A stretch of DNA of 49,638 nucleotides from Bacteroidales bacterium (lineage in GTDB: Bacteria > Bacteroidota > Bacteroidia > Bacteroidales > UBA932), in NCBI GenBank assembly GCA_017428945.1, contig JAFRPW010000038.1, positions 1 through 49,638 of the forward strand, written 5' to 3'. The notes beneath the pieces were generated by a model. The model was not told the origin of the DNA and did not search any database. It worked only from the letters and a program-made list of their open reading frames with translations. The position numbers and the translations under genes are program-made. This document shows positions 8,269 to 22,063 of this stretch, piece by piece (position 1 is the stretch's first letter; each line of letters opens with the position of its first letter).

Positions 8269-8448
8269 CTCCCGAAACAGACGCAGAACCGCTGTCATCT
8301 GTTTCGGGAGGTCTTTTAGTCCATATTATTCGCGAAACATACCGCAGCACCAATCCGTCTGTTTCGAGTGTGACCATATGCCGCCAAATGCCAGTATTGA
8401 CCGCTATTTGTACTGAGAAACAGACAAAACACTGCCTGGATTTGTTTC
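8269..8448. repeat. Family 1 palindromes (GAAACA...TGTTTC), three copies
   Basis: Three imperfect palindromes: 8269-8310 (13-bp perfect arms CTCCCGAAACAGA / TCTGTTTCGGGAG, 16-base loop), 8333-8366 and 8417-8448. All share GAAACA and TGTTTC arms of the type surrounding the Y1 transposase at 9872. The same arms recur at 9516-9729, 10853-11299, 16773-16810 and 17025-17059, making at least 14 copies in the window. Confidence 0.85.
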
Positions 8449-8472
8449 GCGGACTAGAAAAACGTATCTTTG
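8441..8472 (+). promoter_or_regulatory. Promoter of the PAS gene, partly built from a repeat
   Basis: TTTG (8441-8444), then exactly 20 bases, then TATCTTTG (8465-8472), matching Bacteroidota -33 and -7 elements. The -33 box overlaps the right arm of a family 1 palindrome. The -7 box ends only four bases before the ATG at 8477. Confidence 0.65.
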
Positions 8473-8476
8473 ACAC

Positions 8477-8824
8477 ATGAAACGCGATTACTTTGAAGGC
8501 GCGGACGTGGCGGTGACCATCTGCGCCAAGGACGGCACCATACTGGACATGAATGCCAAGTCCAAGAAGACATTCCTGAAGCCCGGTATGGAAGATATAA
8601 TAGGCAATAACGTGCTGGACTGCCATCCGGAGCCGGCTCGTTCCCTCCTTGCCGATATGCTCCAGAATCCCCGCACCAACGTGTATACGGTGGAGAAGGA
8701 AGGAGTGAAAAAGCTCATCTTCCAGACCCCATGGTACGATGAAGGCCAGTACGCCGGCTTCATGGAACTGTCCATGGTGCTTCCGGAAGTGATTCCCAAC
8801 AGAGTAAGAAAACCAAAGATATGA
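8477..8824 (+). CDS. Single-domain PAS protein
   Basis: A 115-residue protein that is almost entirely one PAS domain: MKRDYFEGADVAVTICAKDG leads into a conserved GTILDMNAKSKKTF strand-helix segment, and the core ends near FMELSMVLPEV. PAS domains bind small ligands or cofactors, or mediate dimerisation. Here no kinase, cyclase or DNA-binding output domain is fused, so it must signal through a partner or simply bind a ligand. It overlaps the next gene by 4 bases (ATGA). The promoter -7 box ends 4 bases from the start codon, so the message may be leaderless. Confidence 0.8.
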   Translation: MKRDYFEGADVAVTICAKDGTILDMNAKSKKTFLKPGMEDIIGNNVLDCHPEPARSLLADMLQNPRTNVYTVEKEGVKKLIFQTPWYDEGQYAGFMELSMVLPEVIPNRVRKPKI

Positions 8825-9498
8825 AAAAGCTGCTCCTCCTCCTGCTTTTTGGAGGCCCATTAGTGCTGGCCCAGCCAAAACAACTATCAGTAAAAGAGTT
8901 CCTTAAGCTCTCAAAGTCAGATACCACAAGCTATGTGGTCAAAGGCGTTGTGACCAAGGTCAGAAGCACCGTGAGCGGCAGCTTCTACCTGAAAGACAGC
9001 ACCGGTGAGCTCCTGGTCTACGGACTCCGGCACCCGGAGCACAAGGACTGGAACTTCAAACAGATGGATATCGTCAAAGGCGATACCCTTACCGTCCTGG
9101 GCAGGTTCACTGTTTACGACGGCACCACACTGGAGATGAAAGACGGCCGCCTCCTTGCCAAGGCCGATGGCCCGGACCACAACCTCCCCTTCATGGAACG
9201 CCTGGACCGCAAGCCATCGTTCAAAGGCCGGTCCGGAGAAGATGCGGAAAAAGCCTTCTGCGAGTGGGTCCAGGCCCGGGTCAAGACACCCGAAGGCAGT
9301 ACTGGCGGCACCGTGATGGTCCGCTTCGTGGTGGGCCGGAATGGCGGCGTGCAGGAGGTTCAGGTGCACAAGGGCGTGTCGCCTGAACTCAATGCCGAGG
9401 CCGTCCGGATAGTGTCATCGGCCCCCAAATGGAAGCCCGCCATGATGGATGGCGTTGTTGTCCGCATGACATACGTCATTCCGGTTGTATTTCCGTAA
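8821..9498 (+). CDS. Exported OB-fold plus TonB C-terminal domain protein
   Basis: A 225-residue protein. Residues 1-18 (MKKLLLLLLFGGPLVLAQ) are a signal peptide. Residues about 20-115 look like a small OB-fold (VVKGVVTKVRSTVSGSFYLKDSTGELLVYG...DTLTVLGRFTVYDG), a fold used by several periplasmic proteins. Residues about 140-225 match a TonB C-terminal domain (GGTVMVRFVVGRNGGVQEVQV...PKWKPAMMDGVVV). Classical TonB has an N-terminal membrane anchor and a Pro-rich spacer; both are missing, so this is probably not an energy transducer but an exported protein using the domain for binding. Co-transcribed with the PAS gene. Confidence 0.78.
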   Translation: MKKLLLLLLFGGPLVLAQPKQLSVKEFLKLSKSDTTSYVVKGVVTKVRSTVSGSFYLKDSTGELLVYGLRHPEHKDWNFKQMDIVKGDTLTVLGRFTVYDGTTLEMKDGRLLAKADGPDHNLPFMERLDRKPSFKGRSGEDAEKAFCEWVQARVKTPEGSTGGTVMVRFVVGRNGGVQEVQVHKGVSPELNAEAVRIVSSAPKWKPAMMDGVVVRMTYVIPVVFP

Positions 9499-9515
9499 TT
9501 AGTTTTAAGTTTTCA

Positions 9516-9729
9516 CGCGAAACAGACAGAGACCCGTAGTGATTTGTTTCACTGCGGGATTTCTGTCTTTACTACCGTAGTTAATACTCGCGAAACAGAC
9601 GGAGAGACGCTGTGGCGTGTTACGCGGAAGGTTGGGATTGGGAAGGGCGCGTTGAAAGTGTCTGTGAAACTGGTCTGGTGCGGTGAGTTGCTTGCGAAAC
9701 ATAGGAAATGGCGCTGTGGTATGTTTCGC
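9516..9729. repeat. Family 1 palindromes upstream of the transposase, three copies
   Basis: Copies at 9516-9551, 9591-9625 (right arm decayed to TGTTACG) and 9694-9729 (9-bp perfect arms GCGAAACAT / ATGTTTCGC). An extra half-site, TCTGTGAAAC, lies at 9661. Together with the following A+T-rich 9730-9871 stretch they fill the 373-base gap before the transposase. Confidence 0.85.
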
Positions 9730-9871
9730 ATGAAAAAGTATTTTATAACAAACTAAATATCAGAAGATCAAATAAATAAGAAAATAAATCAAAAAAATGC
9801 AAAGTTGTTAATTAGGCGGAATATAAAAACCTACTTATATTGTGTTCGGTTAAACAAAAGACCGAATATAT

Positions 9872-10834
9872 ATGAGAGAAATAGTTCATTTATGCATGTC
9901 ATCACATGACGAGGTCATGTTCAGAAACGAAGCCGACCTGGCGGCCGGCTTTAACACGTTAGCCTTGAAATCTTACCAGACAGATTCCCGCATACTTGCA
10001 GAAGGTTTCATCACTACTCACTTCCACACCCTGGCTCAAACTGACGATTATCATTTGCTGATGCGTCGGTTTCGCTACTGCTATACTCGTTACTTCAACA
10101 GCAAATATAAGAGAAAGGGCAGTTTAGGTGAGAAAAAGTGGTTCAGTATGAAAATTGACGGGGCTTACCATCTTATGACTGCTCTGAACTACGTAATGCG
10201 TCAAGGCTTACACCATGGACTGGCCAGTACGCCTTTCGGGTACAGGCACTGCTCTGCAAATGTAATTTTTCGCAAAGAACTGGGAAAGAACAATGAACCG
10301 GTCCTTATTGATGACGACCAGGTATTCAAATATCTTCCAGACCGCCATAAACTTCCCAAAGGCTGGAGGATGGATGAAAACGGGCTGATTCTAAGGGAGG
10401 ATGTCATAGATACTTCATACGTGGAACAGGTCTATATCACTCCTAGGAATTACCTGTTTCAAATGAATCGTATCACGGATGATAAGGTGTTAGAAGACCA
10501 GAAGAAAGAAAACACCCTTCCGCCCGTGACGCTGGATTCAATAGAACAGGGAGTACAGGGTTTTGACGTCCAGAAAGCCCTCGTCAATGAGCAAGGCCGT
10601 ATAAACAGGACCATAATGACTGATTTAGAACTATGCCACCTTATAGACGATGTCCTTCTTCCCCGCTATATAAAAGACCCCGAGGAGCAGTCCATCTACT
10701 TGCTTCCGATTTCAAAACGGCACGATATGGGCAACATACTATGGCACGCATCCGGTGATTCCAACAAAAAGGACAACCTCCTTGGTGGTAAAACGGTGAG
10801 TCCCTCCCAGATTCGCCGATGCCTTGCTCTATGA
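9872..10834 (+). CDS. Y1-type (HUH) transposase, RAYT-like
   Basis: A 320-residue protein. Residues 1-130 fit the Y1_Tnp fold of REP-associated tyrosine transposases: an HUH-type pair H50-F-H52 (TTHFHTLAQ), a basic segment NSKYKRKGSLGEKKWF as in the RAYT recipient-strand region, and NYVMRQGLHHGL, whose Tyr107 is the candidate catalytic tyrosine. The final 190 residues extend beyond the minimal RAYT and end with a helical, possibly DNA-binding segment (SPSQIRRCLAL). RAYTs are single-copy genes tied to short palindromes rather than classical IS ends. That is the arrangement here, with family 1 palindromes on both sides. It appears intact. Confidence 0.82.
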   Translation: MREIVHLCMSSHDEVMFRNEADLAAGFNTLALKSYQTDSRILAEGFITTHFHTLAQTDDYHLLMRRFRYCYTRYFNSKYKRKGSLGEKKWFSMKIDGAYHLMTALNYVMRQGLHHGLASTPFGYRHCSANVIFRKELGKNNEPVLIDDDQVFKYLPDRHKLPKGWRMDENGLILREDVIDTSYVEQVYITPRNYLFQMNRITDDKVLEDQKKENTLPPVTLDSIEQGVQGFDVQKALVNEQGRINRTIMTDLELCHLIDDVLLPRYIKDPEEQSIYLLPISKRHDMGNILWHASGDSNKKDNLLGGKTVSPSQIRRCLAL

Positions 10835-10852
10835 CAACCTTCCTTCCGTGCT

Positions 10853-11302
10853 GAAACAGACGTAGATGTGCTTCGGTGTGTTTCGTGTGGCGTACAGCGG
10901 GCAAAACAGGCCATTCAGGGCACTATTGATGTGCTGAAACAGATGGGGAAGTGCTGCTGTCTGTTTCGCGGAAGGGTGAGCATAGCCTAAAGACGTTACA
11001 GCAGTGCTTAATGATTGCGAAACAGACGTAAATATGCTTCGGCGTGTTTCGCGTGGCGGACAGCGGGCAAAACAGGCCATTCAGGGCACTATTGATGTGC
11101 TGAAACAGATGGGGAAGTGCTGCTGTCTGTTTCGCGGAAGGGTGAGCATAGCCTAAAGACATTACCGCAGTGCTTAATGATTGCGAAACAGACGTAGATG
11201 TGCTTCGGTGTGTTTCGAGTGGCGTACAGCGGGCAAAACAGGCCATTCAGGGCACTATTGATGTGCTGAAACAGATGGGGAAGTGCCGCTGTGTGTTTCG
11301 CA
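10853..11302. repeat. Tandem array: six palindromes at exact 83-bp spacing (166-bp unit)
   Basis: A 166-bp unit is repeated nearly three times, starting at 10853, 11019 and 11185. Each unit holds two 32-base palindromes, type A (GAAACAGACG...TGTTTC) and type B (GAAACAGATG...TCTGTTTC), alternating at 10853, 10936, 11019, 11102, 11185 and 11268, always 83 bases apart. Between them are conserved stretches such as GCAAAACAGGCCATTCAGGG and GAGCATAGCCTAAAGAC. Part of the latter also occurs at 8236. The unit copies differ at only a few positions, mostly in the A palindrome, so the duplication is recent. There is no gene in 10835-11360. Confidence 0.92.
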
Positions 11303-16772: not shown

Positions 16773-16810
16773 CGCGAAACACACCGCGGGGCGTTTTTGT
16801 CTGTTTCGCG
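16773..16810. repeat. Family 1 palindrome, left flank of the composite array
   Basis: CGCGAAACA (16773-16781) and TGTTTCGCG (16802-16810), perfect 9-bp arms, loop 20 bases. Same arms as around the Y1 transposase about 6 kb upstream. Confidence 0.85.
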
Positions 16811-16835
16811 CAGCCCCCCCACCTCCCCAAACACC

Positions 16836-17022
16836 AACTTATCCACCAAAAACGCCAAATCCGTGGACAAACCTGCCAAAACGCCAACTTGTCCACCAAA
16901 AACGCCAAATCGGTGGACAAACCTGGCAAAACGCCAACTTGTCCACCAAAAACGCCAAATCGGTGGACAAACCTGGCAAAACGCCAACTTGTCCACCAAA
17001 ACACCCCTTTTCCGTGGACAAA
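16836..17022. repeat. Family 2: four head-to-tail 50-bp palindromic repeats
   Basis: A 50-bp unit starts at 16836, 16886, 16936 and 16986. Each contains TTGTCCACC, 14 bases, GGTGGACAA (9-bp perfect arms in copies 2 and 3, slightly diverged in 1 and 4), followed by ACCTGGCAAAACGCC. Units abut directly without unique spacers, so this is not CRISPR. Related single copies lie at 28347-28390. The whole block is framed by family 1 palindromes and fills the gap between two operons. Confidence 0.9.
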
Positions 17023-18193: not shown

Positions 18194-18796
18194 ATGAAGA
18201 TCAAGTTTTTTCTTATTTACGTATTTGTCGGGATAGCGTTCCTGGCTGTTTCTGCATGGGTTTTTCTGTCCGGCGGACAGAACGCAAAGGCCATTAGGGC
18301 CAAGTACAGGCTTGGCGGCATACTCATCATGGCCTGGGCAATGATTTCCGTAGCCTCTTGCAGTGCCATTGAAGGTTTGATTGATGACAAGGGACAAGTA
18401 ATGTGCTATGATCCGGTTGAGCCGGAACCTACGGAGAACCTCGTGGAGTTCAGTTTCATCAGGGATGAGAGTAAGCAGTACAACAGGGAGAATGATCTCT
18501 GTCCGGGCGATATTATTTCTGCCGAAATAAGGATACCCACTTTCAACAAGTATTTTCTGTACTTGATTACCTATGTTGACGGAAAGAGTACAGAACTCCA
18601 ACGGACGGAACTGTTTGTCGAGGACTTGAAGAACAAGGAGAGTGTCAAATTTGAAGTCCCTGTGAGTGACGCTGTGACTTACAGGGGAGAAGCGCAGGTT
18701 TACGTCCAGGCCTGCGTCTATGACTCAGAGGGCAAGGAATCTTATGGCTGGATTAATGGCGCCGGCAATGGCGTCACGCTTATCAACATAATCTGA
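18194..18796 (+). CDS. Putative lipoprotein paired with a radical SAM enzyme
   Basis: A 200-residue protein with an odd N terminus. A first hydrophobic helix (residues 5-25, FFLIYVFVGIAFLAVSAWVFL in part) is followed by a basic stretch (NAKAIRAKYR, 30-39) and a second hydrophobic run ending in ISVASCS, with Cys56 in a lipobox-like position. The rest (57-200) is soluble and beta-rich with scattered Cys. Its stop overlaps the radical SAM start by one base (TGATG), so the two are translationally coupled. The pairing recalls the TIGRFAM rSAM/lipoprotein system (TIGR04133 enzyme with TIGR04134 lipoprotein), but I could not run the models. It may be the enzyme's substrate. Confidence 0.72.
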   Translation: MKIKFFLIYVFVGIAFLAVSAWVFLSGGQNAKAIRAKYRLGGILIMAWAMISVASCSAIEGLIDDKGQVMCYDPVEPEPTENLVEFSFIRDESKQYNRENDLCPGDIISAEIRIPTFNKYFLYLITYVDGKSTELQRTELFVEDLKNKESVKFEVPVSDAVTYRGEAQVYVQACVYDSEGKESYGWINGAGNGVTLINII

Positions 18797-19797
18797 TGCC
18801 TCGTTTCCACATCAGTAACATAGTCTATGAACTTACCGGAGCCTGCAACCAGTGTTGCAGGTTCTGCTATAATCACTGGCGCCCGGAAGGAGCACCTGCC
18901 CCGGACCCCGCAAGGGCGCGGAAAACGCTCAGGAAGCTGCTCTCACAGTGCTCTGTGGGCACAATCTCTTTCTCCGGCGGGGAACCACTTCTGCTCTCCA
19001 ACATACACAACCTTGTTATCCGTGCACGCCTCAAAGGAAGTCACGTGAACGTACTCACAAACGGTACGCTCCTTACTCAGGACGCTTTGGAGAACTTCGT
19101 GAGTCTTGGCGTGGGTGCCATTCAAATCCCGCTTCTTAGCGCAAATCCGGAAGTCCACGACTATCTTACAAGCCTGAAAGGTTCATGGGAGAAAGCAGTG
19201 GATGCCTTGCGTCGCGCCGGTGGCAAAGGCATTGGCGTATCAGTTCTGGTAATCACTAAGGTCAACGCCCCGGGCGTGTCGGAAACCCTTTCGCTTGTAC
19301 GTGACTGCGGAATCCGCACCGTTATGGTGAACAGATTCAACATAGGTGGAAACGGAATCAGGAACATGCGGGAGCTTGTCCCGGACAGCAAGACCCTCGC
19401 CAGTGCCTTTGCCGCCGTGGAAGCCTTTGCCGCCGCCCATCCGGACATGCGTGTTGTAAGCGGGGTCTGCACACCTCTTTGCTTCCTTGATACGGCCCCA
19501 TATCCCCATATCCAGTTCACAAAGTGCAGTACAGATCTCACCGGTCGTCCCCTCACCGTAAACTACGACGGCGATGTCCGTTTCTGCAACCACTCACCAA
19601 GAGTGCTCGGAAACATATATTCCAGGGTAATTTCTGACATCCTCCAGGATCCGGACATCAATGCCCTGTATGCTGGAATGCCGTCGGAATGCTCTCACTG
19701 CCACCTTCTGGAACGCTGTGGCGGCGGTTGCCGTGCCGCCTCCGAGCAGCTCTACGGCACTTTCTCCAAGCAGGATCCCATAATTGACGTTGGCTGA
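18796..19797 (+). CDS. Radical SAM enzyme with SPASM-type C terminus
   Basis: A 333-residue enzyme. Cys17-x3-Cys21-x2-Cys24 (GACNQCCRFCYNHW) binds the SAM-cleaving Fe-S cluster; SFSGGEPLLLS is the GGE motif. The C-terminal third has a SPASM-like Cys pattern: FTKCSTDLTGRPLTVNYDG, then VRFCNHSP, then CSHCHLLERCGGGC. SPASM enzymes mostly modify peptides or proteins, often forming thioether or carbon-carbon links. The neighbour gene, overlapping by one base, encodes a lipoprotein, so a protein-modification role is the best inference. Radical SAM enzymes with this architecture also activate sulfatases, but no sulfatase is nearby. Confidence 0.88.
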   Translation: MPRFHISNIVYELTGACNQCCRFCYNHWRPEGAPAPDPARARKTLRKLLSQCSVGTISFSGGEPLLLSNIHNLVIRARLKGSHVNVLTNGTLLTQDALENFVSLGVGAIQIPLLSANPEVHDYLTSLKGSWEKAVDALRRAGGKGIGVSVLVITKVNAPGVSETLSLVRDCGIRTVMVNRFNIGGNGIRNMRELVPDSKTLASAFAAVEAFAAAHPDMRVVSGVCTPLCFLDTAPYPHIQFTKCSTDLTGRPLTVNYDGDVRFCNHSPRVLGNIYSRVISDILQDPDINALYAGMPSECSHCHLLERCGGGCRAASEQLYGTFSKQDPIIDVG

Positions 19798-19814: not shown

Positions 19815-19912
19815 GTAAAAGGTTCGGAAAACGTGGCCGAACCTTTTACGTTAAATGGCATTATGGGGTGTATGGTGTAAAAGGTTCGGGGGAAAAAACC
19901 GAACCTTTTACA
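19815..19912. repeat. Family 3: two identical 13-bp palindromes
   Basis: GTAAAAGGTTCGG / CCGAACCTTTTAC occurs at 19815-19827 with 19837-19849, and again at 19877-19889 with 19899-19911, 62 bases apart, each with a 9-base loop of different sequence. The second extends to 14 bp (19876, 19912). Identical arms with different loops suggest two insertions of the same element or selection on the stem. They may also end the radical SAM transcript (the right arms are followed by no T run). Confidence 0.88.
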
Positions 19913-19934: not shown

Positions 19935-19942
19935 TACATTTG
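19935..19942 (+). promoter_or_regulatory. -7 element abutting the start of the next gene
   Basis: TACATTTG (19935-19942) matches TAnnTTTG; the ATG at 19949 lies six bases on. No clear -33 box at 19-21 bases. Confidence 0.45.
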
Positions 19943-19948
19943 CATAAT

Positions 19949-22063
19949 ATGGGAAACAAGTCAAGCTGGATTGCAATTGTGGCTGCGGCCGTGCTTATTG
20001 CCGGCATTGCTTATGGCGTCATGCGCCTTTACGGGACCGGGACCGGCCGCTCGCAGAAGGAGGCCGCTCCCACGGAGTGGGAAGTCCTTAGGGCGGTGCC
20101 TTCAGATGCCGTGGCCGTCATGGTCTTTGACGGCTCCAAGGCTGCACGCAGGGTCATTGCAGACTCTACAAAGCTCCTCCAGCCCGTTCTGGCATCGGAC
20201 AATCCTGCCCTAATGGAGTATCTGGCCGCATCCGGCAAGTACCGCACTGCGGTGGCCCTCCTTACCAGCGGCTCCCTTGTCCCGCTTGTCATTACCCAGA
20301 CCAACAAGGCCGATTCCGCCTCCGTGGCAGACCTTGCCGCGTTGGCAGAGAAATCCGGCCTTAAGACTGTAGTAAAAGAGAACTTCCTCATCGCATCCAG
20401 GAGCGAGACCTTCCTTGGGTCATCGGCCCGCCATCTGGAGGAAGGATCGTCAATCCTCAATGTAAGGAACCTGGGAGACCTGGCCCAGAAAGTAAAGGGG
20501 CCCGCTGTGGCGTTCCTTAACCATTCCCACGCCGCTAAACTGCTCCAGGTATATTCCACGCCTCCTTTCCGCAAGCAGGCAGCCTTTGTGAAGGACCTCA
20601 CCGCCTGGAGCGCCTGGAGCGTGGCGGAGCTGGAGAAGGACCACATAGTCCTGGAAGGAACTGCCCTGAAAGGAGATGCCGCGGCAAGCTGGTTTGCAGC
20701 CTACAAGGGAGCTCCCGTTCAGCCGGCAGAATTCCCGGAGGCGGTTCCGTACTTTGCCGGCGAGATCATTTCCGTTCCCATTTCGGACACATTCATTGAC
20801 TCCCGCAAGGCTTTCGAGGACGGCCGTGGCCGCCTGTCAAAGCTGGACAAGGCTCTCAAGGATAAGGCTAAGCGTGAATTCACTCCCGCTGAATGGTTCT
20901 CCAGCCTCCAGCCCAAAGAGGCCGTAAAGGTCACCTTTGCAGCAGAAGACGGCACTGAGCGCAGCGTCATCCTCATCCGCAGCGGCAAGGATCTCAAACT
21001 GGGTACGGAAAGCCCCAATCCCTACCGAGGAACCATCGGCCAGATACTTGGTGAGTACTTTGCCATAACGGACACCGTCTGCTCCCAGGCAGGCTCCCGC
21101 TGGAGCGTATGGGGGGACATGCCGGGCGTCCGAGCCTTCACAAAAGGGGACTACACGCTTAAAGAACGCATGACCGATGCCTCTGTCCCTGTACCGGAAG
21201 GCTTCACCGCCTATGCCTCCCTCACGGACAGCCCACTGACCGTTGACGATATCTTCTCCGCCAAATTGGCATCGGCCTTTAAAGACTGGGTTTCCGGCAG
21301 CGGATACGCACCTGCGGTGGCCTCACTGGACCTTTCGGGAGAGAATCCCAGGATGCGCGTGGCCATTTACAAGAGGGCCCTCCGCGGCACCAAGGTCCAG
21401 GTTATGGAAAGGGACACCACCGTTGTAGTCCCCACAGGCCTTTTCCCGGTAACAAACTTCTCTACCGGCAAAACCAACTATCTTTACCAGAACAGCCACC
21501 TTTCCATATGCCTTAACGACGAAAACGGCAAGGGCGTCTGGGGCGTTCCCTTCAAGGAAAGCCTCTGCGGAAGGGTTCAGAACATAGATTACTTCGGAAA
21601 CGGGAAAATCCAGTTCCTGTTCTGCGCCGGCTCAAAGCTCTGGGCCATTGACCGCCTGGGCCACTGGGTGAACGGTTTCCCGGCCTCCCTGGGCAAGCCC
21701 GTCCTCCTTGGTCCCGATGTGTACGATTTCACCGGCGCCTCCGGCTACACCGTCATGGTCCTCCACAAGGACAATACCCTGGAACGGTACAACCTCCACG
21801 GTGCAAAACCCGACGGATGGAAAGGCATCAAGGCCCCGGAGACTGTGAAGAACCTGCCGGAACTTATCGAGGCAGGGGAGAGGCGCTTCTGGGCCGTGCG
21901 CACATCGGTCCGCACCATAATCTATCCCTTCGAGGGAGGAGACCCTGCCGTGAACCCGGAAAGCGGGAAAATGATAAAGCCGGATTCCCAGCTCTTCCTT
22001 AACGGCAAGAGTGTCAAAGCGGAATGCTACGACGGCAAGACACGTGAATTCAAACTGTACTAA
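19949..22063 (+). CDS. Membrane-anchored periplasmic protein, unknown function
   Basis: A 704-residue protein with one N-terminal membrane helix (IAIVAAAVLIAGIAYGVM, about residues 7-24) and a large exported part. The first half alternates helices and strands and includes WEVLRAVPSDAVAVMVFDGS, a pattern reminiscent of DUF3352-type Bacteroidales proteins. The last 250 residues carry short strand repeats (GKIQFLFCAGSKLWAIDRLGHWVNGFP, split by turns) resembling a partial beta-propeller. The open frame extends to a TTG at 19940 inside the -7 box, so the ATG at 19949 is preferred. First in a run with an acyl-CoA ligase, dCMP deaminase and CtpA protease; no role can be named. Confidence 0.72.
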   Translation: MGNKSSWIAIVAAAVLIAGIAYGVMRLYGTGTGRSQKEAAPTEWEVLRAVPSDAVAVMVFDGSKAARRVIADSTKLLQPVLASDNPALMEYLAASGKYRTAVALLTSGSLVPLVITQTNKADSASVADLAALAEKSGLKTVVKENFLIASRSETFLGSSARHLEEGSSILNVRNLGDLAQKVKGPAVAFLNHSHAAKLLQVYSTPPFRKQAAFVKDLTAWSAWSVAELEKDHIVLEGTALKGDAAASWFAAYKGAPVQPAEFPEAVPYFAGEIISVPISDTFIDSRKAFEDGRGRLSKLDKALKDKAKREFTPAEWFSSLQPKEAVKVTFAAEDGTERSVILIRSGKDLKLGTESPNPYRGTIGQILGEYFAITDTVCSQAGSRWSVWGDMPGVRAFTKGDYTLKERMTDASVPVPEGFTAYASLTDSPLTVDDIFSAKLASAFKDWVSGSGYAPAVASLDLSGENPRMRVAIYKRALRGTKVQVMERDTTVVVPTGLFPVTNFSTGKTNYLYQNSHLSICLNDENGKGVWGVPFKESLCGRVQNIDYFGNGKIQFLFCAGSKLWAIDRLGHWVNGFPASLGKPVLLGPDVYDFTGASGYTVMVLHKDNTLERYNLHGAKPDGWKGIKAPETVKNLPELIEAGERRFWAVRTSVRTIIYPFEGGDPAVNPESGKMIKPDSQLFLNGKSVKAECYDGKTREFKLY

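Follow-up and report, generated by a model that had tools for sequence, protein, structure and literature searches.

Long-lived mobile DNA in bacterial genomes has a model in RAYTs and REPINs, for which the experimental work that we found was on E. coli and further Proteobacteria, with hairpins tagged by GTAG. One genome can contain several repeat classes (22 in fluorescent pseudomonads and 13 in stenotrophomonads, PMC3686654; see also PMC3733652 and PMC2817692), so that multiplicity of classes alone is not new. Doublets of P. fluorescens peak at 71 and 110 bp (PMC3116915), and no REP-like sequences were reported beside the genes of RAYT subclasses 2.1 and 2.3, whose C-terminal domains are large (PMC6006769). 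Here, we examined a stretch of 49,638 nucleotides (the window; positions 1–49,638 of contig JAFRPW010000038.1, assembly GCA_017428945.1) from a Bacteroidales bacterium (UBA932) of the gut or rumen. It contains a gene for a RAYT-like HUH/Y1 transposase with palindromes of the form GAAACA-N20-TGTTTC on both sides.

The explanation that we favour, with somewhat better than even confidence, is a RAYT/REPIN-like system whose sites would be recognised as double-stranded, phased doublets. A broader reading, in which a radiation of HUH transposases would read helically phased pairs of double-stranded palindromes, so that a single genome holds some ten protein/site pairs orthogonal to one another, appears to us evenly balanced. 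The sequences themselves show the pairing of gene and palindrome, arms specific to the protein, a fixed span in each family, doublets, spacing by whole helical turns and the lack of a GTAG foot.

The transposase gene and its palindromes in the window

The window contig (C34) belongs to a genome (G000) of 2.6 Mb in 47 contigs. The window gene is labelled L016, other matches in the same genome L017–L024 and L114–L117, and the compared genomes carry G-numbers. The comparison set comprised 150 genomes, 91 of the genus (including the window's own) and 59 of other families. Palindrome families, feet, one-mismatch copies and doublets were surveyed in a 780-kb sample of the window's own genome. The features of the locus are as follows, with palindromes assigned to no strand.

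9872..10834, + strand: RAYT-like HUH/Y1 transposase gene (L016), 320 amino acids (open reading frame; sub-threshold NF047646 match; alignment of 68 proteins)
Residues ~1–125 of L016: HUH and tyrosine core; residues ~126–320: conserved C-terminal extension
10019..10027, + strand: HUH motif HFH, codons 50–52 (H50 and H52 invariant in 68/68 proteins)
10190..10192, + strand: putative catalytic tyrosine, codon 107 (Y107 invariant in 68/68 proteins)
8274..8305: palindrome (pattern search)
8334..8365: palindrome, +60 from the 8274 copy (pattern search)
8417..8448: palindrome, +83 from the 8334 copy (pattern search)
9519..9550: palindrome upstream of the gene (pattern search)
9592..9623: palindrome, one mismatch in an arm, +73 from the 9519 copy (mismatch search)
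9696..9727: palindrome, +104 from the 9592 copy, directly upstream of the gene (pattern search)
10853..11299: downstream array of six palindromes in 83-bp steps (10853, 10936, 11019, 11102, 11185 and 11268)
16776..16807: dispersed palindrome of the same type (pattern search)

The window protein has the HUH motif and single tyrosine (Y1) of a RAYT, and catalysis is predicted. In the alignment of 68 proteins, from which four short proteins were left out and four duplicates removed, the only strictly invariant positions were H50 and H52, which form the HUH pair, and the tyrosine Y107. The profile NF047646 (REP_Tyr_transpos) matched residues 39–126 of the window protein with E=0.0012 and a score of 18.7 bits, short of the cut-off of 80, and the Y1_Tnp profile did not match it. 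At E≤0.01, NF047646 matched 15 of the 68 relatives and PF01797 matched nine. Paralogs in the same genome matched Y1_Tnp (to E=4.9e-07) and REP_Tyr_transpos (to E=7.6e-11), with L018 and L022 exceeding the Pfam cut-off. A sequence search of the PDB using the window protein alone returned nothing relevant; a profile built from nine paralogs aligned on the HUH segment with the transposase chain 2xm3 (E=0.046), which we take to be an ISDra2-type transposase (IS200/IS605). Because the paralogs match these profiles, the HUH and tyrosine residues are invariant and 2xm3 aligned over the HUH segment, the window protein is, to judge from these comparisons, clearly a very divergent HUH/Y1 protein of the RAYT superfamily.

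All 12 exact copies of GAAACA-N20-TGTTTC in the window are 32 nt long. Only 0.09 copies were expected, and none of 100 shuffles reached 12. Eleven of the exact copies lie within 8274–11299, on both sides of the gene, and one is at 16776. The initial annotation, made from the window alone, had counted at least twelve such palindromes around the gene, which agrees with the 11 exact copies and one single-mismatch copy in 8274–11299, and had placed two more 6 kb away, where only one was found (16776–16807). Of the arms that it described as constant, GAAACA/TGTTTC and the A at position 8 stand and the 'GA' following GAAACA does not, with G at position 7 in 16 of 21 copies; 10 of the 21 have C at position 26. 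The genome-wide count that it proposed gave 21 exact copies and none of the reversed control pattern. Beyond that annotation are the fixed length of 32 nt, the 83-bp period of the 10853–11299 array and the nine copies outside the window, found on contigs C3, C13, C14 and C30, where most form pairs with a spacing of 83 or 72 bp. A chance origin of the palindromes was ruled out by the shuffles together with the reversed-pattern controls. A known structured RNA was rejected, as an Rfam scan of the window found no family at the gathering threshold.

The 12 arm bases were fixed by the search itself, though the spectrum of mismatches still carries information. Genome-wide, nine one-mismatch copies were found compared to 15 for the reversed control. 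In the 780-kb sample a few decaying copies were apparent, though these did not amount to a tail exceeding the perfect copies. The inner 14 nt had a mean best identity of 0.44 compared to 0.32 for random letters, and seven of the 11 pairs at ≥0.7 come from tandem arrays.

Pairing of palindromes and proteins across loci and genomes

A search of the window's own genome with the window protein gave nine matches, itself included, which share 14–59% identity pairwise. A profile of these nine gave 13 matches, 11 strong and two partial (L116 and L117). The proteins of this genome are 284–343 amino acids long, and eleven genes in 2.6 Mb is a high load. Within the genus, the gene family was present in 78 of the 91 genomes with at least 390 genes, a lower bound with at most 16 candidates scored per genome, and at E≤1e-20 it was found in none of the 59 genomes of other families. 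The named relatives comprise 40 loci in uncultured Bacteroidales or Bacteroidia, and where a source is stated it is rumen, gut or faeces. A lone insertion sequence, or multiple copies of one insertion sequence (IS200/IS605), was rejected because the paralogs are only 14–59% identical and their palindromes differ. L116 (contig C31) and L117 (contig C29) are more distant Y1-like genes encoding 324–372 amino acids, with a homolog in G051 (L197) that is 41–43% identical.

Repeat searches around the genes showed that ten of the eleven strong paralogs adjoin a palindrome of their own, the exception being L114. The arms are GCCGCCTTGACA beside L017, GTCACAT beside L018, GCCACCCGTTACGC beside L021, TGATAAAGG beside L022, TGGAAGGTCCCC beside L023, AAAGGTTCGG beside L024 and GTGGACAA beside L115, and the palindromes of L019 and L020 have two copies each, some of them imperfect. 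Copies away from the cognate gene were found for the L016, L022, L023, L024 and L115 arms, i.e. for at least five of the ten families, and copies of the L017 arm were found only near the L017 gene. As in RAYT systems, the genes are thus flanked by palindromes that are also dispersed in the genome. None of 118 feet of exact copies from six families of this genome carried the tetranucleotide GTAG or GTGG, either directly at the foot or up to 8 nt away. Because each palindrome is nearly symmetric, relative orientation within pairs, which is inverted in REPINs, is hard to define. Two of the other families also occur in the window, again with no strand.

16863..16996: three GTGGACAA-N18-TTGTCCAC palindromes in 50-bp steps, with arms as beside L115 on contig C18
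19818..19908: doublet of AAAGGTTCGG-N9-CCGAACCTTT (+62), a dispersed REPIN-like unit with arms as beside L024 on contig C9

The region 16776–16996 contains both window-type and GTGGACAA-type palindromes, indicating that different families share places. The GTGGACAA/GTGGATAA arms of the L115 family resemble the DnaA box, TTATCCACA, a likeness that may be due to chance or may point to a DnaA-like binding domain. A further 22-nt palindrome, ATTGCCGG..CCGGCAAT, with the variants ATTCCCGG and ATGCCCGG, was seen on contigs C14 and C32 and is not tied to any RAYT-like gene.

Across genomes, the arms followed the proteins. The window arm was at background in the other 90 genomes of the genus (13 copies, spread over 12 genomes with no more than two in any, compared to 24 for the reversed control), and it was present in 34 of the 59 genomes of other families, mostly as 1–5 copies. 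One of the latter, G132, from another family of the order, has 13 copies of a 32-nt GAAACA..TGTTTC palindrome, 12 of which share nearly one loop, and this is probably an independent, unrelated family. Of the four congeners with window-like proteins of 55–58% identity (G004, G011, G027 and G070), three lacked the window arm and one had a single copy. The arm GACGTGA was found instead in G004 (seven copies; protein 58% identical) and G027 (six copies; 57%). The AAAGGTTCGG arm of L024 had 29 exact copies in its own genome and none in the 149 others, and the GTGGACAA arm of L115 had 48 in its own genome, six in G051 and none in the other 148. G051 has orthologs of L115 (87% identical) and L023 (94%) with the same arms. 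Its homolog of L022 (L195, 59% identical) has another arm, TGCGGAAGG, yet the same 37-nt span and a spacing of 75 bp (74/75 in the window's genome). In three families of this genome and one of the relatives, each gene thus appears to go with one repeat class, whose abundance is tied to the cognate gene.

The same pairing was seen at the level of single loci. At least three same-arm palindromes were found within 900 nt of the gene in 19 of 39 relative loci (L064, which is truncated, was not counted among the 40) and in none of 34 distal controls. Among 29 further loci of other subfamilies (excluding L146), 14 had at least two palindromes with the same arm and span, compared to 0 of 580 shuffles. 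Arm similarity tracked protein identity over 41 loci (Mantel r=0.27, 0 of 2000 permutations). The initial annotation had suggested the 190-residue C-terminal extension as a possible recognition part. When the protein was divided into 40-residue segments, covariation with the arm was weak (partial rank correlations of 0.02–0.21), with the highest value at residues 121–160.

If gene and palindromes were unrelated neighbours, the latter being terminators or phage or CRISPR-like debris, such family-specific pairing over many loci, the covariation with the protein and the presence or absence of arms at the genome level would not be expected, nor was there an Rfam family at threshold in the window. 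The position of the copies outside open reading frames of at least 100 amino acids (12/21 for L016, 14/28 for L115, 10/11 for L024, 6/6 for L022, 3/4 for L023 and 4/4 for L017, with some of the reading frames in this count probably spurious) would suit that reading, which is nonetheless largely contradicted and which we regard as very improbable indeed.

The initial annotation had proposed a Bacteroidota RAYT-repeat pair. An HUH/Y1 RAYT-like gene with its own palindrome was borne out, and a canonical REP was not (0 of 118 feet with GTAG/GTGG; 18.7 bits compared to the cut-off of 80). The single pair that it envisaged gave way to eleven strong paralogs. Equal abundance of the repeat in relatives lacking the transposase, which it had named as the observation that would count against it, was not seen; the 90 congeners were at background only and arms differ between related proteins.

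Spacing, recognition and mobility

The distance between neighbouring palindromes was examined in two sets of loci. In set A, the modal spacing was 71–73 bp (8 loci), 82–84 bp (25 loci), 93, 104 or 126 bp, and all 36 loci kept were within 1.5 bp of a 10.5-bp lattice. L138 was dropped from this set as it encodes the same protein as L052; L046, L055 and L062 were kept although their proteins were not long enough to be aligned, as were L048 and L063, which are nearly identical, and L029 was counted at 72 bp from centres (74 by inner arms). Set B comprised 13 of the 14 loci from other subfamilies with palindromes, L171 having one per side only, and its spacings were 51, 52, 73, 75 and 83 bp. With the phase taken from set A, 10 of the 13 were within 1.5 bp of the lattice and all 13 within 2.5 bp, a fit reached by 0 of 100,000 uniform draws. 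Six paralogs of the window's genome outside set A (leaving out L017, at 82 bp, and L023) gave a fit equalled by 17 of 100,000 draws. The spacings in the window family are 60, 72, 73, 83 and 104 bp. The spans of the palindromes were not quantised (R=0.20, compared to about 0.13 expected by chance). Spacing by whole turns suggests use of the sites in double-stranded form.

On the favoured explanation, a palindrome in double-stranded (or cruciform) DNA would be bound at its two arms by two subunits, and a pair of these complexes facing the same side of the helix would synapse before strand cutting. The HUH/tyrosine site would nick and rejoin single strands, and the doublet could in this way spread by copying into further intergenic sites, behaving as a non-autonomous element of the REPIN type. 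The systems would be kept apart, and allowed to diversify, by their orthogonal arms. The double-stranded step is proposed because of the spacing, the symmetry of the arms and the variable stability of hairpins, and the cutting and rejoining chemistry because of the conserved HUH and tyrosine residues.

The stability of single-strand hairpins bears on a different possibility, that of an ordinary RAYT/REP system in which each palindrome is recognised as a single-stranded hairpin and the even spacing is the inherited length of the copied unit. The HUH/tyrosine core is intact, and E. coli TnpAREP works on folded single-stranded hairpins (PMC8266576). Among six window-family copies that were folded, z ranged from -6.4 to 0.03. 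The copy at 8270–8309 folds stably (z -6.4), as do two L024-type copies (z -5.9 and -6.6). In contrast, that at 9515–9554 folds no better than shuffles (z 0.03) with its arms exact, so stability is not conserved. From family to family the spacing changes by whole turns, with no such constraint on the spans, and GTAG/GTGG is lacking from the 118 feet. The symmetric GTGGACAA palindrome of the L115 family has asymmetric feet, TTTG in 19 of 38 and TTCC in 14 of 38, and two differing feet could mark the strand. Taken together, we consider recognition as single-stranded hairpins doubtful, though deserving of serious weight.

Doublets of the L024 family were found in five places, including one adjoining the gene, as oriented units whose interior is conserved and whose flanks have diverged, and this family thus appears to have a doublet dispersed as one unit. 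The window doublet at 19818–19908 sits between open reading frames 18796–19797 and 19940–22063. The syntenic pair in G051 (83% and 76% identical over the aligned parts) is separated by a 71-nt gap instead of 150 nt and has no doublet.

These doublets, which resemble copied units and of which one is absent at a syntenic site, speak against the palindromes being double-stranded operators of a protein that is now mainly a regulator or nucleoid organiser, with copies held by selection rather than spread by transposition. The HUH and tyrosine residues as sole strictly invariant positions in 68 proteins argue for catalysis. The distribution of arms (L024 in no other genome, L115 in one, the window arm at background in the genus) is also unlike that of a conserved regulon. 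In the window family the arms are conserved and most of the loop and spacer sequence has diverged; this, the helical phasing and the C-terminal extension of the aligned proteins would all fit operators, which we nevertheless hold to be improbable.

Several points weigh against a system of double-stranded, phased doublets. Binding, cutting and movement are all deduced by comparing sequences. On the spacing, the 60-bp pair in the window and three set-B loci at 75 bp, all of one arm family, are off the lattice by 2–2.5 bp, and L126 (68 bp, off the lattice) was dropped as an AT-rich pair with unequal spans; if kept, the set-A count is 36 of 37. The spacings of L019 and L021 were taken from direct repeats, their second palindromes being imperfect. 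The loci share descent, leaving fewer independent points, with at least five changes of spacing class on the tree. On the pairing, searches beside L114, L116 and L117 revealed no palindrome of their own, and the contrast with controls is weak when only two same-arm copies are required (31 of 39 loci and 15 of 34 controls). Neither the window arm nor GACGTGA went beyond one background copy in G011 and G070, which have similar proteins, and arms of their own were not found there. GACGTGA also occurred once each in G087 (best match 51%) and G055 (42%) and in none of the other 146 genomes, and these single copies may be due to chance, given one control hit in 150 genomes. G051, where the joint lack of a window-type protein match and of the window arm agrees with the pairing, and where the L024 arm was also not found, is an assembly only 85% complete. 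On the mobility, one-mismatch arms in the 780-kb sample numbered seven, compared to 2, 4 and 0 for three controls, pointing to some decaying copies of the window family. Its spacers are not conserved between copies, and recent movement of this family is therefore not supported. Because the exact borders of the doublet-free site in G051 are not resolved, that site supports insertion without proving it.

Comparison with known systems

In the literature searched, which covered few subscription papers, we found neither a description of the present system nor a report of helical phasing. The system extends a known kind of mobile DNA. The sites change while the geometry stays, which offers a natural set of protein/site pairs in which recognition could be mapped. 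If the double-stranded reading is true, it departs from recognition of single-stranded, GTAG-tagged hairpins by RAYTs, and specificity switching and intragenomic competition would become directly testable. The locus is also relevant to PMC6006769, where RAYT subclasses that have palindromes are contrasted with those whose C-terminal domains are large.

The REPtrons of Gammaproteobacteria (RAYT/TnpAREP with REP/REPIN) share the HUH motif with one tyrosine, flanking palindromes that are also dispersed, doublets and one repeat class per gene. Unlike these, the six families examined here have no GTAG/GTGG foot, the proteins are 284–343 amino acids with a long C-terminal extension, the arms are nearly symmetric with a fixed span, the spacing is by whole turns, and there are eleven genes in 2.6 Mb and members in 78 of 91 genomes of the genus. 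TnpAY1 subclass 2.6 (Quentin et al. 2018, PMC6006769) is similar in occurring in Bacteroidetes with atypical palindromes that lack GT[AG]G and have copies in the genome; its proteins are given as 179 amino acids, unlike the 284–343 found here and the 320 of the window protein. In contrast to subclasses 2.1 and 2.3 as described in the same paper, a large C-terminal part and palindromes occur together. TIRYTs and their TIRtrons, according to PMC3733652, likewise combine RAYT-like genes with flanking repeats other than GTAG REPs, but those repeats are long terminal inverted repeats, whereas the repeats here are short palindromes of fixed span in phased doublets or arrays. The IS200/IS605 transposases are related through the remote match on the HUH segment (2xm3, E=0.046). 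Those elements are near-identical and multicopy with subterminal hairpins, whereas the paralogs described here are diverged and have different palindromes.

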